A DNA stretch of 27,541 bases, taken from a virus. Below are positions 1,361 through 26,475 of this stretch, piece after piece. The translations under genes and the position numbers were made by a program. Every line of letters starts with the position of its first letter. Position 1 is the stretch's first letter. The notes beneath the pieces were generated by a model. That model saw nothing but the letters and a program-made list of their open reading frames with translations. It was not told the origin of the DNA and ran no database searches. The stretch is from IMG/VR virus record IMGVR_UViG_3300037087_000095, positions 1 through 27,541 of that record; one strand, given 5' to 3'.

Positions 1361-1377
1361 TTCCCAAAATTTCCCAA
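1361..1377 (+). promoter_or_regulatory. Tandem TTCCCAA boxes, 10-bp phased (module 1)
   Basis: Two identical heptamers TTCCCAA start at 1361 and 1371, exactly ten bases apart, so they would face the same side of the helix. They sit directly after a stop codon and nine bases before a TTG that could be a -35 element. The same pair with the same spacing recurs at 21442-21458 in the other intergenic module. This looks like an operator or activator site; the binding protein is unknown. Confidence 0.5.
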
Positions 1378-1385
1378 TTAAGTAT

Positions 1386-1415
1386 TTGCAAAAAATAACT
1401 CCTATCGCGTAAACT
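1386..1415 (+). promoter_or_regulatory. Candidate promoter upstream of packaging module
   Basis: TTGCAA (1386-1391) and TAAACT (1410-1415) are separated by 18 bases and resemble sigma-70 -35 and -10 hexamers, each matching four of six consensus positions. An A-rich stretch lies between them. Transcription would begin near 1422, just before GGGAAG. The same TAAACT hexamer and a similar A-tract occur at 21464-21495. It is a moderate match, so a dedicated phage or alternative sigma factor could also be the reader. Confidence 0.4.
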
Positions 1416-1421
1416 ACTCGC

Positions 1422-1532
1422 AACGGGAAGGATCTCATCCAATTTTATGGGTGAGCTAATTTATACAAAAACTTTGAGAAACCTTCCCGGGCTCTTCTCT
1501 AATCCTCGCCATTCCCCTGGCGAGGCTTTTTT
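1422..1532 (+). ncRNA. Candidate structured leader RNA or small RNA
   Basis: Between the candidate promoter and the terminator lies about 110 bases with nested pairing. An inner hairpin pairs CTCATCC (1434-1440) with GGGTGAG (1449-1455) around the loop AATTTTAT. An outer helix pairs GGGAAGG (1425-1431) with CCTTCCC (1492-1498). The inner hairpin has a counterpart with almost the same loop at 21520-21541. The RNA could be a free small RNA ended by the terminator, or a leader that controls read-through into the terminase operon. No known RNA family is recognised. Confidence 0.35.
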
Positions 1533-1581
1533 ATGCCTTTCCAAAACTGAATTCAAAAGAATGAACGGAGGAATCAGTTGA
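1447..1581 (+). CDS. Possible 44-codon leader ORF through the terminator
   Basis: An ATG in the loop of the inner hairpin opens a frame that passes through the terminator and stops at TGA 1579-1581, overlapping the TTG start of the small terminase gene. The nearest purine-rich stretch (GGAAGGA) is about 14 bases upstream, too far for a normal ribosome site. The product resembles no family I know. If translated, ribosomes would disturb the terminator, but the weak start argues for caution. Confidence 0.15.
   Translation: MGELIYTKTLRNLPGLFSNPRHSPGEAFLCLSKTEFKRMNGGIS
1504..1532 (+). terminator. Intrinsic terminator before terminase genes
   Basis: CCTCGCC (1504-1510) pairs perfectly with GGCGAGG (1519-1525) around an eight-base loop, followed by C and six T residues (1527-1532). 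This is a classic rho-independent terminator. It lies about 110 bases downstream of the candidate promoter and 46 bases before the small terminase start, so transcripts from that promoter would need read-through or antitermination to reach the virion genes. Confidence 0.8.
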
Positions 1582-1868
1582 AGAATGGTGGGCGTCGTCC
1601 TGGTGCTGGACGTAAAAGAAAACCTGAAAATGTTCTTAAAGAAATGGAACTCAAAGCTCGGATAAAAAAAGCTGAAGAAGCATTCCAGTTCGAGTATGAC
1701 GTGATGAATGATAAGTCTGTTCCTTGGGGTATTCGTTTAGAGGCGTCCAAAGATATCCAAGATAGAGTTTATGGAAAGCCGAAACAAGTAACTGATTTTC
1801 AAAGCAAGGGAAAATCTCTTCTTGATATTTTGTACGAAGTCTACGGGTTACAAGCAAATGTCGCCTGA
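1578..1868 (+). CDS. terS: Terminase small subunit
   Basis: The 96-residue product begins with GGRRPGAGRKRKPE, a basic N-terminus common in phage small terminase subunits. It continues with a helical charged segment and a region WGIRLEASKDIQDRVYGKP that I recognise from this family. It would bind the packaging site on viral DNA and recruit the large subunit. The start is TTG, chosen because CGGAGGA lies six bases upstream and no ATG is suitably placed. The end overlaps the large subunit gene by 11 bases, supporting the pairing. The length is short for the family but within range. Confidence 0.8.
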   Translation: MKNGGRRPGAGRKRKPENVLKEMELKARIKKAEEAFQFEYDVMNDKSVPWGIRLEASKDIQDRVYGKPKQVTDFQSKGKSLLDILYEVYGLQANVA

Positions 1869-3345
1869 AGCTAAGCTCATTCAAAAATGGCTTAAAGATC
1901 CAGTATCTTTCGTTGTTGAGTGTTTGAAAGCCGAACCGGATAAATGGCAGATCCAATTCCTTAGAGAATTTAACAGCAATCAGAGAATGGCGTTAAAGGC
2001 TTGTAAGGGTCCTGGTAAAACAGCCGTGCTTGCTTGGTGCATTCTTCTTTTTCTCTGTACTCGTCCTCACTCAAAAATCGCCGCAACCTCAATAACCAAA
2101 GACAATCTTGAAGACAATCTGTGGCCTGAACTGTTTAAGTGGATGGATCATTCTGAATTTCTGAAGAAAGCATTCACTTGGACTAAGACAAGAATCTGTT
2201 CAAACGAAGCCCCTGAGACTTGGTTTGTTTCAGCAAGAACTTGGCCTAGAAATGCTGATGCTCAACAACAAGCAAACACGCTCGCCGGACTTCACGCTGA
2301 TTATCTCATGTTCGTCTTAGATGAATCAGGCGGTATTCCAGATGCAGTTATGGCCGCTGCCGAAGGGGGGCTCTCCACCGGGAAAGAGACTAAAATTTTA
2401 CAAGCTGGAAACCCAACGCACTTAGAAGGTCCACTTTACCGTGCCTGTACCTCAGAAAGACGGCTCTGGTATGTTCAGGAAATTACTGGAGATCCAAAAG
2501 ACCCAAATAGATCTACCCGTGTTTCTGTCAAATGGGCGCAAGAGCAGATTGAAAAGTATGGAACTGATAATCCATGGGTCTTGGTTAATGTCTTTGGCAA
2601 GTTCCCTCCCGCTTCTATAAACGCATTGTTAGGTCCAGATGAAGTAGAGGCTGCGATGAAACGAGTCGTAAGGGTGGAAGACTACGAATTCGCTCAAAAG
2701 AGGCTTGGCGTTGATGTAGCGCGGTTTGGTGATGATTCTACGGCACTTGCCCCAAGACAGGGATTAATGTGCCATCAAATCGAAGAAATGAGGAATGCGC
2801 GCGGGAATGAAGTAGCCGCCAGAGTAGCCCTAGGAAAGCAACGTTGGGGTTGGGAAGTCTGTTTTGTCGATGATGGCGCTGGTTTTGGAGGAGCGGTCAT
2901 TGATTCTATGCTTCAAGGTGGATTAGAGGCAATTCCTGTTAATGCTTCAGGCAAGGCCGATGATCCCAGGTACTTCAATAAACGCTCTGAAATGCACTTG
3001 CGGTTTTCAGAATGGGTTAAACGTGGCGGATGCTTGCCAAATAGTCCGAGACTAAAAAGTGAAATAACTGCCATAACTTACACCTTTGTTAATGGGAAAT
3101 TCAGGATTGTTGAGAAAGAACAGATCAAAGAATTGTTGGGATATTCGCCAGATTATACAGATGCTATTTGTCAAACCTTCGCTTGGGCTGAAATGCCCCG
3201 CGGCTCCAACATTAATCAAGCTTCTCTACCAAAAGATGAATTAAGTGGTTTATCTCTTACCTCAGAAGAACTTGGGATCACTAGTCATAAGGGAAACATA
3301 AAAAGTGAGTTTGACCCGTTTCGTGAGCCGGCGGGAGTTCGATGA
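1858..3345 (+). CDS. terL: Terminase large subunit (packaging ATPase-nuclease)
   Basis: This 495-residue protein is the motor that pumps DNA into the prohead and cuts the concatemer. The ATPase half has a Walker A (KGPGKT, residues 50-55), a Walker B (MFVLDE, 151-156, with D155 and E156) and a coupling motif LQAGNPT near 181. The RNase H-like nuclease half shows acidic residues at GVDVARFGDD (D286), FVDDGAG (D338/D339) and DYTDA (D432/D435). I chose the ATG at 1858 rather than an upstream in-frame ATG at 1822, because the later start gives the usual short overlap with the small subunit. The stop overlaps the next ATG. Confidence 0.95.
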   Translation: MSPEAKLIQKWLKDPVSFVVECLKAEPDKWQIQFLREFNSNQRMALKACKGPGKTAVLAWCILLFLCTRPHSKIAATSITKDNLEDNLWPELFKWMDHSEFLKKAFTWTKTRICSNEAPETWFVSARTWPRNADAQQQANTLAGLHADYLMFVLDESGGIPDAVMAAAEGGLSTGKETKILQAGNPTHLEGPLYRACTSERRLWYVQEITGDPKDPNRSTRVSVKWAQEQIEKYGTDNPWVLVNVFGKFPPASINALLGPDEVEAAMKRVVRVEDYEFAQKRLGVDVARFGDDSTALAPRQGLMCHQIEEMRNARGNEVAARVALGKQRWGWEVCFVDDGAGFGGAVIDSMLQGGLEAIPVNASGKADDPRYFNKRSEMHLRFSEWVKRGGCLPNSPRLKSEITAITYTFVNGKFRIVEKEQIKELLGYSPDYTDAICQTFAWAEMPRGSNINQASLPKDELSGLSLTSEELGITSHKGNIKSEFDPFREPAGVR

Positions 3346-4293: not shown

Positions 4294-6096
4294 TTGATTT
4301 CAAAGATCAATCCAAGAGTTATCGAAGACACTTACAAAAAGTTCAATGCTCAGGTTATTAATCGACTTGAGCTTGAGCGTTTACGTTCTATGCTTTTAGT
4401 TGAAAGGTCAACTTTCTTTGCTCATTGGCAGGAATTAGGACGTTATATTTTCCCTCGAAGAACAAGGTTCTACACGACAGACGTTGACAAAGGAACGAGG
4501 CGCAACCAGTCAATCATAGATTCCACGGGCGGTTTGGCTGCGAGGACATTACGCTCAGGCATGATATCGAGCTTCACCTCTCCTTCCCGCCCATGGTTTA
4601 GGCTCACAACTCTCGATCCAGACTTGGCCAAGAGAGATTCAGTTAAGGAATGGCTCTATGACGTAACCTGGCTTATGTCGGATGTATTCTTTAAATCAAA
4701 CGTCTACAACTCTTTATCGACTGTCTATGGAGATATTGGGGTCTTTGGGACCGGGGCTATGCTTATTGAAGAGAGCTTTACTAAGGTCATTCACACACTT
4801 CCCTTTACCATTGGAAGCTATTACATTTTCGCCGATGACAAGTTAAAGATCAACGGATTCATGCGTGATTTCCGTTTAACCGTCAGGCAGATAGTCGAGA
4901 AATTTGGAATGAAAGAAGGATCTCCCGATATTGACTGGACTGGAATTTCTGGCATGGTCAAACGCCTTTGGGAGATGGGAACAACTGAAGCATGGATCGA
5001 AATGAGCCATGGAATTATTCCAAATCCAGACTGGAATCCAGACTCGCCTTTATCAGACAAGAAAAAATACATGAGCGTCTATTACGAGCGCGGAAGTCTT
5101 GGGGGGCAATTTTCTTTAAGTGATATCGACACGACAAAGGTTTTGCAGAAGAAGGGATATGACAAATTCAGGGTTTTGGTTCCTCGTTGGGAAGTGAGCG
5201 GAGAGGACATTTACGGGACGTATTGCCCCGGGATGGAGGCTCTAGGAGATATTCAGGGTCTTCAAATGTACGAACGTAGAGCGGCTCAGGCTCTTGAGAA
5301 GTCAATTAACCCGCCTATGGTTGGTCCAGCTTCGCTTCGCAACTCAAAAGCCAGTGTTCTTCCAGGTGACATCACGTACATCGAGGGTCGGGAAGGACAG
5401 CAAAGCTTTACTCCTGCTTATCAGATTCAACCCAATTTTCAGCAGTTAGAAGCTAAGGAAGAGCAGATCAGGCAAAGGATTAAGAAATGTTTTCACGAAG
5501 ATCTTTGGCTTGTCATTTCAAACATGGAGAAAGGAAACGTAACGGCTGAAGAGATTCGGGCACTCCAACAGGAAAAACTTCAGGAAATTGGTCCCGTAGT
5601 AGACAGACTTAATCAAGACTTGCTTGATCCGCTCATTGAGAACACATTTGACATCATGCAGATGCAGAGGATGTTACCTCCTCCTCCTCAAGAGATGTCA
5701 AAGATGCCTTTAAAAATTGAATATGTTTCGATCATGCACCAAGCCCAAAAAGCATTGGCGGCTTCTGGAATAGAAAGATTTTGGTCTTTCGCTTCACAGA
5801 TTCGTCAAGCAGAGCCAGAAAATCCTGATGTTCTGGACAAAATTAACGTAGACGAATTGATTGATCATTACGGAGATGCTTTGACGACACCTCCGGGTGT
5901 CATTCGTGATGACGATGAAGTTGAAAAGATCCGGGCTCAACGTCAACAGGCGATGGCTCAACAACAGAAAATGGCTCAAATTGAACAAGCGAGTAAAGCA
6001 GCTAAGAATCTTGGCGGGGCTGATACAAGCGGTCAAAACGCTTTAACAGATCTCATAGATCAAGGACAGGCCGGTAACCTAATGCCAGCGCGATGA
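4294..6096 (+). CDS. Portal (head-to-tail connector) protein
   Basis: The 600-residue product matches the T7 gp8-like connector family in length (T7 gp8 is about 536 residues) and in features I recognise. These are an N-terminal region with RSTFFAHWQELGRYIFPR, a WFRLTT segment after a Ser/Thr-rich stretch, and GTGAMLIEE near residue 150. A Gln-rich C-terminal tail lies beyond residue 550. It would form the dodecameric ring at the portal vertex through which DNA enters and leaves. The start is TTG at 4294, two bases after the previous stop, with TAGGAG upstream. It ends in an ATGA overlap with the phosphatase gene. Confidence 0.9.
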   Translation: MISKINPRVIEDTYKKFNAQVINRLELERLRSMLLVERSTFFAHWQELGRYIFPRRTRFYTTDVDKGTRRNQSIIDSTGGLAARTLRSGMISSFTSPSRPWFRLTTLDPDLAKRDSVKEWLYDVTWLMSDVFFKSNVYNSLSTVYGDIGVFGTGAMLIEESFTKVIHTLPFTIGSYYIFADDKLKINGFMRDFRLTVRQIVEKFGMKEGSPDIDWTGISGMVKRLWEMGTTEAWIEMSHGIIPNPDWNPDSPLSDKKKYMSVYYERGSLGGQFSLSDIDTTKVLQKKGYDKFRVLVPRWEVSGEDIYGTYCPGMEALGDIQGLQMYERRAAQALEKSINPPMVGPASLRNSKASVLPGDITYIEGREGQQSFTPAYQIQPNFQQLEAKEEQIRQRIKKCFHEDLWLVISNMEKGNVTAEEIRALQQEKLQEIGPVVDRLNQDLLDPLIENTFDIMQMQRMLPPPPQEMSKMPLKIEYVSIMHQAQKALAASGIERFWSFASQIRQAEPENPDVLDKINVDELIDHYGDALTTPPGVIRDDDEVEKIRAQRQQAMAQQQKMAQIEQASKAAKNLGGADTSGQNALTDLIDQGQAGNLMPAR

Positions 6097-6704
6097 TCAC
6101 AATTTATTTTGGAAGGCATGGGGAAACCGATCTTAACAGGGAAGATAGACTTCGCAGTTGGATTGACGAGCCCTTAAACGCTGACGGAATCAAAGAGGCA
6201 GAAGCGATGGCGAAGAAAATGGAAAAGTTTCCATTGAATAGAATTTACACGTCTGATTTAGATCGGGCTGATAAAACGGCGAGAATTGTGGCCAAAGCAC
6301 ACAACCTTAAGCCAATCCCGCGTCAGTGGTTTCGTCCGATCAACTATGGAGAATGGAATGGAAAAAAGGTCACAGATGTCAAAGAAGAGATGCAAAAACT
6401 TCTCGACGAATGGAAAACTAACCCAGATAAGAAAGCACCCGGGGATGGGGATTCATTCACTGAATTTCAAGATCGTTTTTTGGGTGGACTCCATGCTGTT
6501 ATTAATGCCGCGTCAGGAAATGAACAAATCATGATTTTAGGCCATTTGAGAAACTGTCTTTTGCTTTGGGCTGTAGCTAAAAATGGAGAACCGCTCAAGG
6601 GAGACACTTTGGATCTCATCGACGATAAGCATTTCCATCAAGAGAGTGGGTCTGTAGCCAAATACGAATGGGACGGATCGCTTCAATTTAAGGGGATTAT
6701 TTAA
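6093..6704 (+). CDS. Histidine phosphatase family protein
   Basis: The 203-residue product belongs to the phosphoglycerate-mutase-like histidine phosphatase superfamily. The signature GRHGETDLN (residues 7-15) supplies R8 and the phospho-accepting H9. R58 in SDLDRAD, E87 in NYGEWNG and H151 in LGHLRN complete the usual catalytic set. The length and spacing are those of small soluble phosphatases such as the alpha-ribazole phosphatase group, but the substrate cannot be told. It is translationally coupled to the portal gene (ATGA) and to the next tiny gene (TAATG). Its place inside a head-gene cluster is unusual. Confidence 0.9.
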   Translation: MITIYFGRHGETDLNREDRLRSWIDEPLNADGIKEAEAMAKKMEKFPLNRIYTSDLDRADKTARIVAKAHNLKPIPRQWFRPINYGEWNGKKVTDVKEEMQKLLDEWKTNPDKKAPGDGDSFTEFQDRFLGGLHAVINAASGNEQIMILGHLRNCLLLWAVAKNGEPLKGDTLDLIDDKHFHQESGSVAKYEWDGSLQFKGII

Positions 6705-10323: not shown

Positions 10324-11076
10324 ATGTCATCGGTTGAGCAGACAACGACGGATATTGCGAATCTCGCTCTTTCTCATTGCGGAGTTTCTAAGCCTCTTGT
10401 CAATATATCCACTGACAAGAGCTTAGAGGCTCAGCTTTGCAGAACATTTATTGATATCACGAGGCAGACAGCCCTTCGTGAGTTTCCGTGGATGTTTGCT
10501 ACGAAACAGGTAGCGCCTTCCTTAATTGCGAATCAACCTACGAGTGAATGGCTTTATGCCTATCAATACCCGGATGATTGTTTAAGGCTTATTAAATTCA
10601 TGAGTTGGAGGCTTTCAAACGATACAAGGCAAAGCCGGGTTGAATATAAGATCATGCAACCAGCACCCGTGAATTTATCAACCTTATCTCCTAAACCAAC
10701 GAGTTATTCTCAAACAAGCGGATTATGGCTTTATACGAATTGGCCTGGTGTTAATGTAAGTATGCCAACGGTTATCGAGTATATTTTTGACAATAAGAAT
10801 ATTGCTCAGTGGCCGCCGGATTTCATTATTGCCATGTCTTATAAATTGGCTTCATTCTTGGTCATGACATTGACCAGTGGTGATCTCCAGAAATACGCCA
10901 CAGACATAGACGCAAGATACAAAGCGGCTATTGATACGGCGAAAGCGTTTAATCTGAACGAGGAACAAAGACCCGAGGAACCTCAGTCTGAATTCATTCG
11001 CGCGAGAGATGGGGATATGTTTGGCTATACAGGGATGACATGGATTGCTGAGCCCGCCGGGTTCCAAGTGCAATAA
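10324..11076 (+). CDS. Tail tubular protein A (gp11-like adaptor)
   Basis: The 250-residue product resembles T7 gp11 (about 196 residues): an N-terminal helical section with IANLALSHCGV and EAQLCRTFIDITRQTAL, the sequence REFPWMFATKQ, and WLYAYQYPDDCLRLI, which is a hallmark of this family. It would form the ring that joins the portal to the tail nozzle. AAGGTG precedes the ATG. The C-terminal helices (KYATDIDARYKAAIDTAKAF) also fit. It is followed almost directly by an HNH gene that separates it from its usual partner. Confidence 0.9.
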   Translation: MSSVEQTTTDIANLALSHCGVSKPLVNISTDKSLEAQLCRTFIDITRQTALREFPWMFATKQVAPSLIANQPTSEWLYAYQYPDDCLRLIKFMSWRLSNDTRQSRVEYKIMQPAPVNLSTLSPKPTSYSQTSGLWLYTNWPGVNVSMPTVIEYIFDNKNIAQWPPDFIIAMSYKLASFLVMTLTSGDLQKYATDIDARYKAAIDTAKAFNLNEEQRPEEPQSEFIRARDGDMFGYTGMTWIAEPAGFQVQ

Positions 11077-11077
11077 T

Positions 11078-11632
11078 ATGTATCCATCAATACGATTAGA
11101 AAATCTTCGCGGAACTCCTGAGAAAAGATTCATGGTGAAAACTCATCAGGAGATAAATGGATGCTGGCGATGGCTTGGTTGCTTTGATGGTACACCTCGG
11201 AATGGAGATAATCCACGCGGTCGTTATGGAAGATTTGCCCTTGATGGATATCACATGATTGGTGCTCACAAAGCTTCTTATCTTTTATTTAGAGGAATAA
11301 TAGAACCTAATCTTCAAGTTTGCCATTCCTGCGACAATCCCTCTTGCGTAAATCCCCAACATCTTTTTCTAGGTACATCTCAAGAAAACATGGACGATCA
11401 AGTTTCTAAAGGACGTGGATCTTTTCAGAAACCAGGATGGATTTCTCCAAGGAAGGGGACAGGAAAACTCATTAATCAAGATGGACGATACGGTGTATTA
11501 AGAAATTACACTGTCTGCGGAAAGGAAACATTACATTCAAATTCTTACATGGAAAAAGGTAAGTCTCCAAGTTGTAGTAAAAAATGCTCTGGAATATTAA
11601 GTGCAAGGGTTCGTTTTGGGAGAGGAAATTAA
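11078..11632 (+). CDS. HNH endonuclease (probable homing type)
   Basis: The 184-residue product has a classic HNH core: GCWRWLG, then GRYGRFALDG, HKASYLLFRG, CHSCDNPSCVNPQHLFLG and the following TSQENMDDQVSKGR. The two CxxC-like pairs can hold a structural zinc and the His residues form the catalytic site. The C-terminal part carries a second cysteine cluster (VCGKET and CSKKC). The ATG at 11078 follows the previous stop by one base; its ribosome site is poor, so it may depend on coupling. The stop directly precedes the start of tail tubular B, so the gene fits between two partner genes without breaking either. Confidence 0.88.
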   Translation: MYPSIRLENLRGTPEKRFMVKTHQEINGCWRWLGCFDGTPRNGDNPRGRYGRFALDGYHMIGAHKASYLLFRGIIEPNLQVCHSCDNPSCVNPQHLFLGTSQENMDDQVSKGRGSFQKPGWISPRKGTGKLINQDGRYGVLRNYTVCGKETLHSNSYMEKGKSPSCSKKCSGILSARVRFGRGN

Positions 11633-15032: not shown

Positions 15033-16606
15033 TGGCTATGATAGCCCCAGAAGTAATGCCTGAACCAATTAATCCTCCCCGGATTCAACCTTCTGCTTCT
15101 TTAGAGACATTTGGAGGCGGTCAAGGACTCGAAGCCATTGGTCAGCAGGAACAGAATATCACTAGGGCGGGAGGTGAAATAGCTGCTTTTGAAAAGATCC
15201 GCGCTGATCAAACGGCAGTGGAGGAAGCCATCGGAAACAAACTCTCTCCCGCTTTAACTCAGATTCTCCATGATCCACAAAATGGTGCCATGGCTAGAAT
15301 TCAGAGAGCTACGTCAATTGACGATATTCATAAAATCCACGATGACGTTTTAAAACAATATGACACAACCGCAAAAGAAATTGCCTCTAAATTAAGCGGT
15401 CCCGCTCAAATTGGAGTCTATAACAAACACGCCTATTCCTTTGGTGATTCCCTTAATAGAACCCTAATGGTTGCGGGAGATCAGAAATTCAAGGAATTGG
15501 ATAATAAATCTTTCCTTTCTTTCATCGATAATACAACGGCACAAGACGCCTTGATGTGGTCTCAACATACTGACCCAAATTACTTAAAGGCAAGGACAGA
15601 TTTACTTAACGATCATATCAACCAGTACGCTTTCAGAAATGGGTTGGGAAAAGACCAAAAAGAGGAATTGACTTCAAAAGTTTTCAGCAATTATCACGCT
15701 GCCATTATTGATCGGATGCTAGCTGATTCTCAAAAAGATTCAGACTACGATCAGGCAACAAAATATTTCAATGAACACAAGGATCAAATAGCGAATCTCG
15801 ACGTTAGAGGTAATGTCGAGAAGATGTTGGATGCCATTCCGAAACAAAAAAAAGCGATGGAAAAACAGGCAAACGAAGATAGGTATACCGCCAATGACAG
15901 GCAAGTCATCCTTAATATCGGGTCTAGCAACTATTCCGTCAATGAAGCTTTCAGGCAATATCAGAATGACGAAATAGACGAATCGACGTACAAATGGGCA
16001 AGGAGTCAATTATTGAGTCCAAATTTCCAAACTCAAAAGATGATGGCGAGTGATCCCGATACTTATAACTCAATTCGAGAAATGCAACTTCAAGGCGGGA
16101 GTCCTAGAGAAATTCAGGACAAGATAAAAGAAGGAATTACTGAAAAGAAACTGATGCCGAATGAGATAGATTATTTAACCAAATTGACCCAAAACATCAA
16201 ACCAACAGAAAGAGACAGACAGATAGAATCTGCCGCGAACTATGTCAGAGATTCAGCTAACAGATATTTTGACCCGGGCTCTTCCAGATTTGGAAACTTA
16301 TTTGGAATGGAAGATAAAGCCAATCAAAAAAGAAGCGAGAAAACAGAAGCGTTGGTTAAACAGTTTTATGAAGAGGTTGATTCTAAAAAGATTAAAGATC
16401 CTGAAGAAATTCGAGGAGCTGCCGAGAGGATTTTTGAAACAGCCATCAGAAAAGAACATCCTCATATTCCAGCCGGGAAGTTGCCAGATGTTGTCTTAAC
16501 TGTTGACGGAAAACTCATTAAACTTCTAAATGGTGAAGAACCATCTCAGGCAAAACCAAAATACAAGATAACTCCTACCATGGCTCAAGATGTTGAAGCT
16601 CAATGA
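15032..16606 (+). CDS. Internal virion protein (gp15-like ejection protein)
   Basis: The 524-residue product is mostly charged and predicted helical, with no membrane segment. It begins with a Pro-rich stretch (EPINPPRIQPSASLETFGGG) that is usual for gp15-like internal proteins of podoviruses, which are longer in T7 (747 residues). Position between a gp14-like and a gp16-like gene is the main evidence. In T7 the equivalent spans the periplasm with gp16. Start and stop overlap both neighbours (TAATG, ATGA), indicating coupled translation in fixed ratio. Confidence 0.75.
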   Translation: MAMIAPEVMPEPINPPRIQPSASLETFGGGQGLEAIGQQEQNITRAGGEIAAFEKIRADQTAVEEAIGNKLSPALTQILHDPQNGAMARIQRATSIDDIHKIHDDVLKQYDTTAKEIASKLSGPAQIGVYNKHAYSFGDSLNRTLMVAGDQKFKELDNKSFLSFIDNTTAQDALMWSQHTDPNYLKARTDLLNDHINQYAFRNGLGKDQKEELTSKVFSNYHAAIIDRMLADSQKDSDYDQATKYFNEHKDQIANLDVRGNVEKMLDAIPKQKKAMEKQANEDRYTANDRQVILNIGSSNYSVNEAFRQYQNDEIDESTYKWARSQLLSPNFQTQKMMASDPDTYNSIREMQLQGGSPREIQDKIKEGITEKKLMPNEIDYLTKLTQNIKPTERDRQIESAANYVRDSANRYFDPGSSRFGNLFGMEDKANQKRSEKTEALVKQFYEEVDSKKIKDPEEIRGAAERIFETAIRKEHPHIPAGKLPDVVLTVDGKLIKLLNGEEPSQAKPKYKITPTMAQDVEAQ

Positions 16607-19600
16607 TTGCCTATCTTGAAGGGAAAGATACGACTGTTGAAGTACCTGATAACATTGGAGAGAACGAGCTAAAAGACATTCAGGACAATTTCGCCTCTTA
16701 TGTTACCCCGGAACAACCGCAGAAACCAATTCCTACAAAGTCTGAGATAGCCCCAGAACCAGAAAAATGGGAGAAAAATTTCTACGAAAGCCATTTAAAG
16801 CCAGCTCTAAATCAAGCAAAACTTTTTGGTAAGGAAATTGGGGATGTTTTTTCGAATCCTGAGCCTTTACCTGAGCAATTCGCTAAAACAGAGACGGGAC
16901 AGGTCTTTGGAGGAAAGGCGACAGAACAATTAACCTTCGGATTGGCTAAGCCACTCATCGAACCGATTATCAGTCAAATGACAAAAGACCATCCTGTTGC
17001 TGCGTTTACTGGAGAAATGACAGGGGGGCTAGGAAGCCTATTAGCAACCGGCGGTGCTCTCCGTATTCTTGGTCTTGGAAAGGCGGCAGTAGCAGCCGGA
17101 CAAGCAGCTACAGAATTGATCCCAGAGGGTGAAATCGGAGCTAGGGTAGCAGCTTCTGCGGTCAATTGGCTACCTAAAGCTATTATGACCGGGTCTACCT
17201 TTGGGACCCAGACTTTTATCGCCAAGACAATCAAGATGTTTCAAGACGGGAATGTCGACCTACCTACTTTTGGACGCGACGTTTTGAGATCGACCACCAT
17301 AAGTACAGCTGCAGGAGTTACGTTAGGCGCCATTGGGCGAATTACCAGTATCCCGACATCTGTGGCCTCGGCAGCAGCCTTAGGCTTCGTAAACTCAAAA
17401 ATGGAAGGATCTGACAACCAAGAAGCGTCTTTGAGTGCTGCCATTTGGGCAGCGTTTGAATTTATTGGTTCGGAAGCTAAAACACCAGAATTAGTTAGGA
17501 ACACAGTGAAATCGACAGGAGATTCGATTGGAGATTATGTATCGAAAAAAGATGCCTCTCTGGATATAGAAACAGCCCGGGGTGTGGGGAAATCTTTTGT
17601 TGAAAACGAGATTCAAAGACATGGCGGGATCGAAGAGATGGGAAAGCCAGAGGTGGCTTTACAAACTCTTGAAGATATCAACCAGAAAATAAGGCAAGGA
17701 AAAATCTCTCCCGTTATTAAAGCTCCTCCTGAAATTGAAAGAGCGCCCGAACCCACAACGCCCGTTGAACCGCAGTCTGTAAGCCAAGCATTGGTCCCGA
17801 CAGAACAGCCTCAAGAGACGATGGCTCAGAAAGGGAAAAATATCGCCAATGTCATAACGGATCTTGTGAAAGGCGGAATGAAGGATATTCCGAAAGCTAT
17901 TTCAGACGTTAAGAATATCTTGAATCCTTCTCCATCTGTTAATCCTCAAGAAGAACTCACGAAGCATTTTACCGAGTTTTCCAAGATGCAAATTGAACAA
18001 GTGCCAGAAGATTTAAGGGACGTTCATCACTATATGAAGTTAGGAACAGAGAGAATGGCATTTGCTCGAAACTTGGCAGATATTTCAAACCATCTTGATT
18101 CGATAGGGTTAAGTCATGAAGAAAAAATGGCGGTGTTTGACGAATACGGATTAAATACGAAGAATGTTTTTGGACATCCGATGGTTGGGAAAAACGTTGA
18201 AGATTTAATTCATGCGCCAATTGAAGAACAATATCAACGTGTTGCTTCGGCAATAGCAGAAAAGAGAGATAGTGAATTAAATCCTAAAACAATAGAAGAA
18301 GCAAAATCAATTGTTGACATGATTGATGACCGTTTTAATCCTAAGTCTCAAGACGTTTTTAAATTTTCAGAGGAAAACAAAGGGAAGTCCGAAAATGACT
18401 TAGCACAAATGGCATACAATCGAGGAATTCTTGAAGAGCCTTCTTCTGATCTTTTGAAAGTCGAATCAATGAAAGCTAAAGAAGATAAATATCCTGTCAA
18501 AATAAGGCCAGAACCTATTTCTAAAACTCCGTCGATAAAACCAGAACCAAGAGAAGTTTCAACTGCTTTTAAAGAATCAGTGGATGAAATAAAAAATATC
18601 GTTTCACCAGCAAATTCTGCTCCATTAGCGGCGCAGATAACGAGAGAACAGCTTGGGATTATGGCGAGAAGTTATGATAGAGCTGAAGCGTCCTTAGAAT
18701 CTGCTAGTAAATTATTTTCAAAACAATCTGTTGAGAAAAATACTGATTTCATAAATCGGATGGAATTGGGACAAGAACAGGAAACACCTGAACTAAATTC
18801 AATCTCTAAGCAATTACGCAATCTTTTGGATACAAAGAGAAAAGAAGTCCAAGATCTTGGTAATGGAAAACTTGAGAGTTTCATCGAAAATTATTTCCCG
18901 CATATTTGGGAGCAGGGAGAGAAGACAGTATCGAAAGCCGTAATGAAAGCATCGAAGCGTCCATTCGAAGGATCAAAATCATTCATTAAAAAAAGGTCAA
19001 TCGAATTTTTCAAAGAAGGAATAGATCTAGGTTTGACTCCTGTTTCATTCAATCCTGTTGATTTGACATTATTGAAGGTTCGAGAGATGGACAAATATAT
19101 TATGGCTCATCGGACTATCAACGCTTATAAAGAGAATGGATTGGCTCAATATGTAGCTGTCGGAAAAGATCATCCTGAAGGATGGACACAAATTGACGAC
19201 AGAATCAGCACTGTTTTCAAAAGTCCTATGGTTGCGGTTAAAGAAGCTTACGATGAAAAAATGATGAATGATCTCAATATGGTAGCTAAATCTCTTGGTA
19301 TTGATCTCACACGAAATACTCATCCTGGAAAAGAAGGGAAGAGATTCGGAGATGTTTGGGGATTATCACAATCAGATGCCGCTAGATCAGGAACACCAGG
19401 GAAAATATGGACTCGATTTGCGGGTCCAGAGAGCGCACTTGCACATGAACTTGGCCATCAACTTGATCACATCTATGGACTTCAAGAGATGTTTCTATCT
19501 AATCCAACGATATCAGGTGAACTTACAAATTTGGCAAGCCAACGTGCTCCTTCCGGTTCATCAGAAAAATTCAATTCTTATATTCAAAAACCAGAAGAAA

Positions 19601-21438
19601 AGATGGCGGTGATGTTGGAATCTTATATTCATGCGCCGGAATTATTAAAAGAATATGCTCCAACAACTTATGGAAAATTGGTTGATTTTCTAAATAGTCA
19701 ATCGAAGTTAAAGCCATTGACGGAAATTAAACCGTCTTTAGTCCTTGGAACAGGTGAATCAGAAGTATATGCGGGTGGAAACGTTATTTCTGGACATATT
19801 TGGGCACAGCCAGACGCAGCCAGAATCATAAATAATTATCTATCCCCGGGACTTCAGAAGTCTTCGATTTATCAAGCGTTTCGTTATGCGGGAAATATGA
19901 TTAATCAGTTTCAGCTTGGGTTTTCAGCTTTTCACTTAGGATTTACCTCAATGGATGCAATAGTCTCAAAAATGGCATTGGCGATTAATGAGCTTTTTGA
20001 AGGGCACCCAATTAAGGCTGCGCAAGATGCTATTTCTTCTCCATTCTCTCCGATAACAAATATCATCCGTGGAAACAAATTATTCAAAGCATGGCGCGGG
20101 GAAGGGCAATCTCAAATGGATGAAATAATGGCGGATGCTATGGAATCTGCTGGTGGACGAATTCAAATGGATCAATTTTATGCAACGAGAGCCTATGATC
20201 AAATGAAAAAGTTATTTCAGGCTGGAAAACCAATTCAAGGAATTCTTCGTTTTCCAATGGTTATAACAGAGGCAAGTTCTAAACCGATTCTCGAATGGAT
20301 TGTTCCTCGTCAAAAACTTGGAGTATTTTCCGATATGATGAAGATGGAGATGGAGAACAACCCGAATATGACACATGAAGAAATGCGCCAAATCGCTCAA
20401 AGGGCTTGGGATAGTGTAGATAATCGCATGGGCCAACTCGTCTATGACAATTTATTCTGGAACCGGACTTTCAAAGATTTACTCATGGCTTCGGTTCGTT
20501 CTGTTGGCTGGAATCTAGGTACAATCCGAGAAATTGGAGGAGGTGTAAAAGATTACGCGCAAGCGACGAAAGACATTCTTAGTGGAAAAAAGACAGAATT
20601 TACTCCAAGGATGGGATACGTGTCAGCCCTTCCAATTGTTGCCGGACTATTCGGAGCAATTTATCAGTATCTGAGAACAGGAAAGGGACCGGAAGAATTG
20701 AAAGATTATTACTTTCCAAAAACAGGTGGAGTAGATGCTAATGGAGATCCGAATAGGATAGCTCCTCCGACATACATGAAAGACGTTTACCATTACACAA
20801 AAGAGCCTGTTAGAACTGTTACAAACAAATTGAATCCCCTCTTATCTATTATGGCGCAGATGTTTAATAACAAAGATTACTACGGTGTCACGATAAGAAA
20901 TCAAGAAGATAAGGTTGTACAACAAGCATTGAGCGAAGCAATGTTTACGATCAAGCAGATGGAACCGTTTGGTTTTAGGAATATGAGAAATCAGGCAGCG
21001 ACGGGAAACCGTTCGTTACTTGATACCATCCAACCATGGATAGGTATTACCCCGGCACCATGGGACATCAACCAAACAAAAGCTGAAAAATTGGCTCACG
21101 AGATATCAGCTTCAAAAATATCCATCGGTGGAAGAACCCAAGAGCAAGCAGATCGATCAAAACTTCTTCGTCAATTGGAAGTAGGATTCCAGACCGGGAG
21201 CCCTGATGCGACCAATAATCTCATCGATGCTTATCAGAAAGGGAAGATATCCGCTCAACAAATGAGAAATGTCATCATCACTTCAAAAATGACCCCATTA
21301 CAGAGACAGGCGCATAGTTTCACTTACAAGGAAATAAAAGCTGTTTATGATAAAGCGAACGATGATGAAAAGCAGCAACTTGAAAATATGATGAAACGAA
21401 AGGAAATTTCTTCAAAACGGGGATGGGTGACTCAATGA
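16603..21438 (+). CDS. Giant ejection protein with zinc-metallopeptidase segment
   Basis: At 1,611 residues this is the largest gene and occupies the T7 gp16 position (gp16 is 1,318 residues). The first 35 residues (GKDTTVEVPDNIGENEL) are a motif common at the start of such proteins. Residues about 120-270 are rich in Gly/Ala hydrophobic stretches suited to membrane insertion. A central segment (about 875-1040) contains HELGH (H948, E949, H952) and an ExxAxxxExY motif (E999, A1002, E1006, Y1008), as in zinc metallopeptidases of large phage polyproteins. The sequence IWAQPDAARIINNYLSPG resumes the ejection-protein core at 1065. The C-terminal third is helical. No lytic transglycosylase motif is obvious. 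It overlaps the previous gene (ATGA). Confidence 0.85.
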   Translation: MIAYLEGKDTTVEVPDNIGENELKDIQDNFASYVTPEQPQKPIPTKSEIAPEPEKWEKNFYESHLKPALNQAKLFGKEIGDVFSNPEPLPEQFAKTETGQVFGGKATEQLTFGLAKPLIEPIISQMTKDHPVAAFTGEMTGGLGSLLATGGALRILGLGKAAVAAGQAATELIPEGEIGARVAASAVNWLPKAIMTGSTFGTQTFIAKTIKMFQDGNVDLPTFGRDVLRSTTISTAAGVTLGAIGRITSIPTSVASAAALGFVNSKMEGSDNQEASLSAAIWAAFEFIGSEAKTPELVRNTVKSTGDSIGDYVSKKDASLDIETARGVGKSFVENEIQRHGGIEEMGKPEVALQTLEDINQKIRQGKISPVIKAPPEIERAPEPTTPVEPQSVSQALVPTEQPQETMAQKGKNIANVITDLVKGGMKDIPKAISDVKNILNPSPSVNPQEELTKHFTEFSKMQIEQVPEDLRDVHHYMKLGTERMAFARNLADISNHLDSIGLSHEEKMAVFDEYGLNTKNVFGHPMVGKNVEDLIHAPIEEQYQRVASAIAEKRDSELNPKTIEEAKSIVDMIDDRFNPKSQDVFKFSEENKGKSENDLAQMAYNRGILEEPSSDLLKVESMKAKEDKYPVKIRPEPISKTPSIKPEPREVSTAFKESVDEIKNIVSPANSAPLAAQITREQLGIMARSYDRAEASLESASKLFSKQSVEKNTDFINRMELGQEQETPELNSISKQLRNLLDTKRKEVQDLGNGKLESFIENYFPHIWEQGEKTVSKAVMKASKRPFEGSKSFIKKRSIEFFKEGIDLGLTPVSFNPVDLTLLKVREMDKYIMAHRTINAYKENGLAQYVAVGKDHPEGWTQIDDRISTVFKSPMVAVKEAYDEKMMNDLNMVAKSLGIDLTRNTHPGKEGKRFGDVWGLSQSDAARSGTPGKIWTRFAGPESALAHELGHQLDHIYGLQEMFLSNPTISGELTNLASQRAPSGSSEKFNSYIQKPEEKMAVMLESYIHAPELLKEYAPTTYGKLVDFLNSQSKLKPLTEIKPSLVLGTGESEVYAGGNVISGHIWAQPDAARIINNYLSPGLQKSSIYQAFRYAGNMINQFQLGFSAFHLGFTSMDAIVSKMALAINELFEGHPIKAAQDAISSPFSPITNIIRGNKLFKAWRGEGQSQMDEIMADAMESAGGRIQMDQFYATRAYDQMKKLFQAGKPIQGILRFPMVITEASSKPILEWIVPRQKLGVFSDMMKMEMENNPNMTHEEMRQIAQRAWDSVDNRMGQLVYDNLFWNRTFKDLLMASVRSVGWNLGTIREIGGGVKDYAQATKDILSGKKTEFTPRMGYVSALPIVAGLFGAIYQYLRTGKGPEELKDYYFPKTGGVDANGDPNRIAPPTYMKDVYHYTKEPVRTVTNKLNPLLSIMAQMFNNKDYYGVTIRNQEDKVVQQALSEAMFTIKQMEPFGFRNMRNQAATGNRSLLDTIQPWIGITPAPWDINQTKAEKLAHEISASKISIGGRTQEQADRSKLLRQLEVGFQTGSPDATNNLIDAYQKGKISAQQMRNVIITSKMTPLQRQAHSFTYKEIKAVYDKANDDEKQQLENMMKRKEISSKRGWVTQ

Positions 21439-21441
21439 AAT

Positions 21442-21458
21442 TTCCCAATTTTTCCCAA
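21442..21458 (+). promoter_or_regulatory. Tandem TTCCCAA boxes, 10-bp phased (module 2)
   Basis: TTCCCAA occurs at 21442 and again at 21452, with the same ten-base spacing as at 1361-1377. As in module 1 the pair begins only a few bases after a stop codon and ends five bases before a TTG. The repetition at two operon fronts makes chance less likely and suggests a common regulator. Confidence 0.5.
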
Positions 21459-21463
21459 AAATG

Positions 21464-21495
21464 TTGATACGAAAAAAATAAAGATCATCTAAACT
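21464..21495 (+). promoter_or_regulatory. Candidate promoter for fibre module
   Basis: TTGATA (21464-21469) and TAAACT (21490-21495) resemble the elements of module 1, but the spacer is 20 bases, long for sigma-70. An A-tract lies between them, as at 1386-1415. Transcription would begin close to the palindrome TTCCCGGGAA (21505-21514). The match between the two modules is better evidence than the match to consensus. Confidence 0.35.
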
Positions 21496-21512
21496 TTATC
21501 TGTATTCCCGGG

Positions 21513-21556
21513 AAGCGTGTCTCTTCAGTTTTATGAGGAGATATTAAGTGACGCTT
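21513..21556 (+). promoter_or_regulatory. Leader hairpin covering the fibre-gene ribosome site
   Basis: TCTCTTC (21520-21526) pairs with GAGGAGA (21535-21541) around the eight-base loop AGTTTTAT, with one G-U pair. The 3' arm is the ribosome binding site of the GTG start at 21548. An outer helix AAGCGT (21513-21518) with ACGCTT (21551-21556) would also enclose the start codon. A four-residue minicistron (ATG at 21533, TAA at 21545-21547) ends exactly where the gene begins. The hairpin could hold translation low until opened. Confidence 0.45.
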
Positions 21557-22114
21557 GCTGCCACGCCTATCGTCAATTCCTATATCGGTACAGGAACTGC
21601 GAATAGCTATTCTTTTTTATTCTCTGTTTTCACCTCCTCAGATCTTCTCGCTGTTGTCACTTCTCCAACAGGTGTCTCTACCCTCCTCGGTTTAACTACA
21701 GATTACACAGTCTCGGGTCTTAATCCTTCCGGCGGTCCCGCTTCCTCGGGCTCAATTGTCCTTGTCAACAATAGCCAGGCTTGGCTAACGGCAGGAAATT
21801 TAAAGACTGGTTGGACTCTTACGATCACTCGAAACGTTTCCCTTGATCAAAATACGTCTATCCGAAATCAGGGCGACTTCTACCAAGAATCTATCGAGTC
21901 TGCCTTGGACCGGATTGTGATGATGGTCCAACAGCTTCAACTCGCAATCAGTCCTACTAGTTATCCTTTTATTGGAACAATCTCCATTGTTAACGGGACG
22001 GTTGTATTCACGGCAGCAGGTGGGGGCCCCATAGTCACAACCCCAAACGGACTTCATACATACCAAATAGGAATAGCCAATGACGGCTCAATTCATCAAA
22101 TACAAATTTCTTAA
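21548..22114 (+). CDS. Tail fibre N-terminal adaptor (gp17-like)
   Basis: The 188-residue product resembles the N-terminal tail-binding domain of T7 gp17 fibres: YSFLFSVFTSSDLLAVVTSP, then TDYTVSGLNPSGGP, LKTGWTLTITRNVSLDQ, and RNQGDFYQESIESALDRI followed by MMVQQLQ. It would attach host-recognition fibres to the tail nozzle. It lacks the long shaft and tip of T7 gp17, so those parts are probably supplied by downstream genes. The start is GTG with GAGGAG seven bases upstream inside a hairpin. The end overlaps the next gene by 35 bases. Confidence 0.85.
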   Translation: MTLAATPIVNSYIGTGTANSYSFLFSVFTSSDLLAVVTSPTGVSTLLGLTTDYTVSGLNPSGGPASSGSIVLVNNSQAWLTAGNLKTGWTLTITRNVSLDQNTSIRNQGDFYQESIESALDRIVMMVQQLQLAISPTSYPFIGTISIVNGTVVFTAAGGGPIVTTPNGLHTYQIGIANDGSIHQIQIS

Positions 22115-25935: not shown

Positions 25936-26475
25936 TTAAATAGTCCAATGTTTATTGGTGATTATAAGATGAATTGTGGGAACAGAAACATGAAACATTT
26001 CAGCCAAATTTTTCATAAATATCTTTCTATGATTTCTTCCAAATCTATTGGAGATACCATTGATTGGCTTTTTGTAAAGAGTTCTAATTTTATCAACTTG
26101 TTTTTGCGTAAGTTTCGCCCTTGCATTTTTTTCACCAATACAAGAACGCCTTTTTTTAGCCATATCTTTAAGATTATCGGTATTAGTTCCAAGCCAAAGA
26201 TGAGAAGGATTAACACACAAAGGATTGTCGCATTTATGAAGAACACACATTCCTTTTGGAATAGGACCATTGTGGATTTCCCAAGACAGTCTATGGGCGG
26301 CAACAAATCCTTGTCCTCTATACCCAATACCAATCTTGCCATAACCTTGAATATTAGTAGACGCAGTCCACAACCAACAAGACTTAGTTTTTTTAACTTT
26401 AGACCAAAATCTTTTTTCAAGCGGAATGGGTTTAGGCCCACCACCTACTCCTTGACCAATATGTTTTTTAGTCAT
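25936..26475 (-). CDS. HNH endonuclease on the minus strand
   Basis: The 179-residue product has an HNH core: SCWLWTAS, GYGKIGIG, AAHRLSWEIHNG, VLHKCDNPLCVNPSHLWLG and TNTDNLKDMAKKRR. A C-terminal segment follows (KNARAKLTQKQVDKIRTLY and NLAEMFHVSVPTIHLII) that resembles a helix-turn-helix for target recognition. This is the layout of free-standing homing endonucleases. It runs against the surrounding operon, with GGAGG six bases before its ATG and a perfect consensus promoter just upstream. It differs in sequence from the HNH at 11078, so it is not a recent copy. Confidence 0.9.
   Translation of the reverse strand: MTKKHIGQGVGGGPKPIPLEKRFWSKVKKTKSCWLWTASTNIQGYGKIGIGYRGQGFVAAHRLSWEIHNGPIPKGMCVLHKCDNPLCVNPSHLWLGTNTDNLKDMAKKRRSCIGEKNARAKLTQKQVDKIRTLYKKPINGISNRFGRNHRKIFMKNLAEMFHVSVPTIHLIITNKHWTI

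Follow-up and report, generated by a model that had tools for sequence, protein, structure and literature searches.

Genes and features of the locus

The window, that is, the whole viral record IMGVR_UViG_3300037087_000095 of IMG/VR (27,541 bases), contains two related stretches, designated M1 (1361–1460) and M2 (21442–21541), which lie upstream of the terminase genes and of a tail-fibre gene, respectively. The features considered below are as follows, P1 to P3 being stems predicted in the M1 RNA and L001 the closest relative of the phage.

1361–1377, + strand: paired TTCCCAA boxes of M1, starting at 1361 and 1371 (10 bp apart), about −53 from the presumed transcription start
1386–1415, + strand: promoter-like TTGCAA-18-TAAACT of M1, with TTG at 1386 and TAAACT at 1410; its counterpart in L001 is TTGCGA-18-TAAGCT
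1424–1431, + strand: 5' strand of P1, CGGGAAGG, with the CGGGAAG common to M2 and L001
1434–1455, + strand: hairpin P2 of M1, CTCATCCA-ATTTTA-TGGGTGAG
1466–1476, + strand: weak stem P3 (CAAA/TTTG), stronger in L001
1474–1491, + strand: TTGAGAAACCTTCCCGGG, identical in L001 and carrying the 3' strand of P1
1482–1489, + strand: 3' strand of P1, CCTTCCCG, pairing with CGGGAAGG
1504–1532, + strand: intrinsic terminator (stem 1504–1525, then a T-run), kept in L001
1578–1868, + strand: terS (phrog_15261), the first gene past the terminator, about 46 nt away
1822–3345, + strand: terL
21442–21458, + strand: paired TTCCCAA boxes of M2, starting at 21442 and 21452 (10 bp apart)
21464–21495, + strand: promoter-like TTGATA-20-TAAACT of M2, with TTG at 21464 and TAAACT at 21490; poor −35 spacing
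21509–21515, + strand: CGGGAAG of M2, common to M1 (1424) and L001
21520–21541, + strand: hairpin of M2, TCTCTTCA-GTTTTA-TGAGGAGA
21548–22114, + strand: tail-fibre N-terminal protein with a GTG start (PHROG tail protein N-terminus, phrog_1640, 1.8e-25)

The portal (Head-tail_con) and major capsid (GP7, epsilon15 family) proteins place the phage among the epsilon15-like podoviruses. A histidine phosphatase gene (6093–6704; PF00300, 2.5e-36) adjoins the 3' side of the portal gene within the virion block, and the 1,611-aa virion protein preceding M2 (16603–21438) has a HELGH metalloprotease-like motif and no Pfam match. Two HNH_3 homing-endonuclease-like genes are located on opposite strands (11045–11632, +; 25936–26475, −) and have in common a 47-nt inverted repeat with 72% identity (11330–11376 and 26186–26232).

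A contig from a fen metagenome-assembled genome (MAG) of Syntrophaceae (L234, PLLV01000025.1) matches the window phage over 13,310 bases at 100% identity; this phage contig had been binned as if it were host DNA. It offers only a weak clue to the host and is not an independent copy. Since L234 is the same phage, the only independent relative is L001, a 4.9-kb contig with a TerL of 78% identity. L001 stops within terL, and the comparison thus covers the M1 side and includes no M2 region. Searches with TerS and with the zinc-motif protein described below yielded no additional close relative.

Two related modules before the packaging and fibre genes

The preliminary description had reported TTCCCAA boxes, a TTG, TAAACT, GGGAAG and a hairpin in both modules, and all of them were found at their reported positions and in the same order. 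The similarity that it had proposed to verify by alignment was also confirmed: within the window, M1 finds its best match in M2 and vice versa, and a whole-window search with 400 shuffled queries gave no score as high as the observed 22.5 (null mean 14.8, maximum 21.0). Markov-shuffled pairs equalled the M1/M2 score in none of 2,000 trials under a gentler scoring scheme and in 1 of 2,000 under a stricter one. The two-box arrangement TTCCCAANNNTTCCCAA (TTCCCAA-N3-TTCCCAA) occurs without mismatches exactly twice in the window, at 1361 and 21442.

The distance from the boxes to TAAACT is nearly constant, 49 bp in M1 and 48 bp in M2, while the spacer between TTG and TAAACT varies (18 versus 20 bases). 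Therefore, the boxes and TAAACT form a fixed frame, and the TTG, although present in both modules, probably represents a weak or absent −35 element in M2.

The two-box pattern is matched by 25 viral contigs, and a scan of 36 other related loci, with limited flanks, for paired modules gave a few borderline scores. In the MAG outside the phage, the pattern had a single one-mismatch match, located inside coding DNA. No M2-like element was seen downstream of relatives of the virion protein preceding M2, where the sequence differs.

Predicted leader RNA folds and the terminator upstream of terS

Both leaders fold much better than shuffled sequences (z-scores of −4.1 and −6.0). All eight pairs of the hairpin stem form in M1 as well as in M2. 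Five of them differ by substitution of both bases, with no pair disrupted; this count comes from two sequences and was equalled by a shuffle control in 13 of 500 trials. Slid registers performed far worse, with at most one pair changed on both sides. The loop, (A/G)UUUUA, and its A-U closing pair are common to both hairpins. Conservation of the loop combined with changes on both sides of the stem suggests a function of the hairpin at the RNA level. In M2, the Shine-Dalgarno-like GAGGAGA (21535–21541) of the GTG codon at 21548 falls within the 3' arm, and since this places the ribosome-binding site for the fibre gene inside the hairpin, the hairpin may limit translation of that gene. No Rfam family matched the window at the gathering score, and the sub-threshold matches were weak.

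M1 comprises the elements listed in the preliminary description, but it extends further, into the long-range stem P1 (1424–1431 with 1482–1489) and the terminator at 1504–1532. P1 encloses P2 and the weak P3, probably forming a three-way junction. Unlike M1, M2 has neither a long-range stem nor an intrinsic terminator.

A promoter search and inspection revealed no plausible promoter between the terminator and terS, either in the window (1532–1578) or in L001 (3163–3198), and because of this, transcripts of terS and terL most likely arrive by read-through of the terminator. The preliminary description had proposed that related control modules precede terS/terL and the fibre gene and switch both blocks on together. 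The former part agrees with our analysis, but the latter misses the terminator; because it follows M1 alone, the packaging block would need an additional read-through step.

Conservation of the first module

The order of promoter, RNA, terminator, and terS is kept in L001 at the same location, with the terminator 43 nt upstream of terS. The L001 element consists of TTGCGA-18-TAAGCT, CCGGGAAGG, a hairpin of other sequence, a stronger third stem, and CCTTCCCGG; common to both phages are TTGCRA-18-TAARCT, CGGGAAGG, CCTTCCCGGG, and the terminator. The leaders have about 80% column identity, and the longest identical run over 3.3 kb of DNA, 18 nt, lies in the noncoding RNA, the longest in terL being 17 nt. 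Conservation upstream of terS, anticipated in the preliminary description, thus covers CGGGAAG, the promoter region, and an equally placed stem-loop, but not the TTCCCAA boxes, which L001 lacks. Given this absence, the boxes would be confined to the window phage, or other sites would take their place in L001.

Among 93 loci, the covariance model R2 gave a meaningful score only for the window and L001. In 197 bacterial genomes related to the MAG, it recovered the same phage only, along with one weak match in a coding region. Of the listed viral contig matches to the pattern CGGGAAGG-N40..70-ACCTTCCCG, those beyond L001 and the window look like chance. Nothing comparable was found upstream of terL in the Xanthomonas CP2-like TerL relatives. 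Most other TerL relatives have no terminator upstream of terS, and a few have one. Among those inspected, the terminators of the three contigs L148, L236, and L245 were rejected as gates, since a plausible promoter lies downstream of each and the arrangement resembles a usual boundary between operons. In L161 (1860–2122), a TerL relative at greater distance, another type of long enclosed hairpin, CACCCTGGTAGAAG...CTTCCACCAGGGTG, is located upstream of terS/terL.

Candidate regulators

No protein of the Q families (PF06530, PF03589, PF06323) was found among the tested upstream ORFs of the window or in 3 kb of upstream L001 sequence, neither of which includes much of the early region, and the upstream proteins tested had no match to the Ogr/Delta family. 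A 98-aa protein with a CxC...CxxC motif is encoded shortly upstream of the late module (651–947) and has a counterpart with 48% identity in L001 (2232–2546). It has no Pfam match and its structure model is poor (pLDDT 54); the motif could form a zinc site, making this protein a candidate regulator only. The 56-aa ORF at 947–1117 had been read as a helix-turn-helix protein, but its single-sequence structure model did not support this.

Comparison with known control systems

Late operons of phage P2 share an activator site: several late promoters with a poor −35 element are activated by Ogr from a site near −55. The modules resemble them in having a shared upstream site and a poor −35 before several late operons, but P2 sites have dyad symmetry, whereas the TTCCCAA boxes are direct repeats. 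The portal and major capsid families are common to our phage and epsilon15 (Uetakevirus), in which annotated operators precede terS, the portal block, and the tailspike; in both phages, one regulator site would thus precede terS and the fibre or tailspike gene. The epsilon15 operators, annotated as repressor sites, are palindromic (ATTACCN5GGTAAT) and located after the terminator, while the boxes form a direct repeat of another sequence rather than a palindrome, which sets them apart from that operator set.

In phage lambda, the RNA-borne antitermination signals known as nut, with boxA and boxB as the elements recognized by an N protein, are repeated in two operons. The resemblance to nut is general, consisting of a linear element and a conserved-loop hairpin in two leaders. 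HK022 put likewise represents RNA-borne antitermination signals in two operons of one phage; put RNA, about 70 nt folded into a pair of adjacent stem-loops, belongs to the early operons and acts on the polymerase without a protein (PMC9378689). As with put and nut, one phage bears two related RNA elements, each in an operon leader, but a single common hairpin is predicted here, enclosed by P1 in M1 and standing alone in M2, and the leaders therefore fall outside the definition of put.

Lambda, with Q and pR'-tR', provides a known case of gate-type control over virion genes (PMC7171158), and a pR'-tR'-like late control was proposed for the Pseudomonas phage YA3 (PMC7326022). M1 has this type of layout, comprising a late promoter, short leader, intrinsic terminator, and late genes that would need read-through. 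The terminator is clear; the promoter matches the consensus weakly and is conserved in L001. In contrast to lambda, the leader RNA is folded and conserved, the element stands directly before terS, a second module has no terminator, and no Q protein was found in the available sequence, which lacks most of the early region.

In the gene transfer agent cluster of Caulobacter, activation by GafY/IHF and antitermination by GafZ were shown experimentally (PMC11150451). An upstream activator site (putative in our phage), a poor −35 element, and a terminator near the start of the virion cluster are common to both systems. In Caulobacter, three 150-bp repeats downstream of the first gene make up the terminator, and the antiterminator site lies in promoter DNA; the sections consulted mention no leader RNA structure. 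We do not assign the modules to the lambda Q, put, P2 Ogr, or epsilon15 operator families, because there is one independent relative and no antiterminator or activator of a recognizable family was found.

Possible mechanism of late-gene control

The best explanation, which we advance as nearly an even call, is that both modules act as regulated late promoters and that terS and terL are gated by read-through of the leader terminator. From the sequence we infer promoter activity, binding of a regulator, and regulated read-through. A phage regulator would bind the TTCCCAA direct repeats near −53 and aid the host polymerase at poor promoters (TTGNNA, TAAACT). Each transcript would open with CGGGAAG and the conserved-loop hairpin, which could mark or load the polymerase or protect the RNA. 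The M1 RNA would then fold into the P1-closed junction and meet the strong terminator just upstream of terS. Since no plausible promoter separates the terminator from terS, packaging genes would be made only upon read-through, as at a promoter–leader–terminator gate of the lambda pR'-tR' kind. Points against this reading are the single independent relative, in which the boxes are not kept, the negative Q search in the tested upstream ORFs, the scarcity of terminators upstream of terS among the other TerL relatives, and the fact that M2 has no nearby strong terminator, so that antitermination would explain only half of the arrangement.

Control could also operate at the DNA level only, through an ordinary pair of late promoters governed by a P2-like activator or an epsilon15-like prophage repressor. 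The hairpin would be a 5' stabilizer or a translation brake, and the M1 terminator would end an early operon with constitutive leakage into terS. This is possible, if on the doubtful side. Paired boxes at a constant distance upstream of both blocks, epsilon15 operators preceding terS and the tailspike, and the ribosome-binding site covered by the M2 hairpin all agree with it, but it leaves unexplained why no DNA is better conserved between the two phages than the noncoding leader and why, unlike in epsilon15, L148, and L236, a promoter precedes the terminator and none follows it. The direct-repeat form of the boxes further disfavors the repressor version, repressors usually having a palindromic site. 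If a single regulatory stretch had recently been duplicated, with a hairpin of no conserved function, this would account for the element order common to the two copies. We regard such a duplication as very improbable, given that the stems diverged by compensating changes around an unchanged loop, which a neutral copy would not do, and that the M1 arrangement is kept in L001 with the leader similarity noted above.

M1 might instead be a small-RNA gene, a reading we consider quite improbable, in which a promoter, a structured RNA of about 110 nt, and a terminator form a complete unit, as seen in two phages. The RNA would act in trans, perhaps through pairing of GAGAAACCTTCCCGGG with CCCGGGAAGCGTGTCTC of the M2 leader, opening the hairpin over the ribosome-binding site, with terS expressed by leakage. 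Across the plus strand of the window, the M1 3' arm pairs best with M2 (−25.9 kcal/mol), with a gain of 7 kcal/mol on cofolding, but the coding stretch that comes next has almost the same energy (−25.8 kcal/mol), so that the trans pairing is not significant and was rejected. In addition, much of the pairing follows from the common CGGGAAG, the M1 3' arm is locked in P1, and terS would be left without a promoter.

A bolder form of the gated-promoter reading holds that the leaders represent a new class of phage antitermination RNA, in which CGGGAAG and the conserved-loop hairpin recruit a phage protein or act directly on the polymerase in both virion operons, while the P1–P3 fold of M1 makes read-through of the terS terminator conditional. 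We consider this unlikely. Most likely, the kind of control is a known one and the leader RNA element itself is undescribed; the literature searched contained no description of such late-gene control in epsilon15-like podoviruses. If the proposal is true, a leader RNA that gates packaging genes and has its sister upstream of the fibre genes would be a compact and testable RNA-based antitermination system outside the lambdoid phages, and the leader RNA pair would provide a usable signature of late operons in metagenomic phages.
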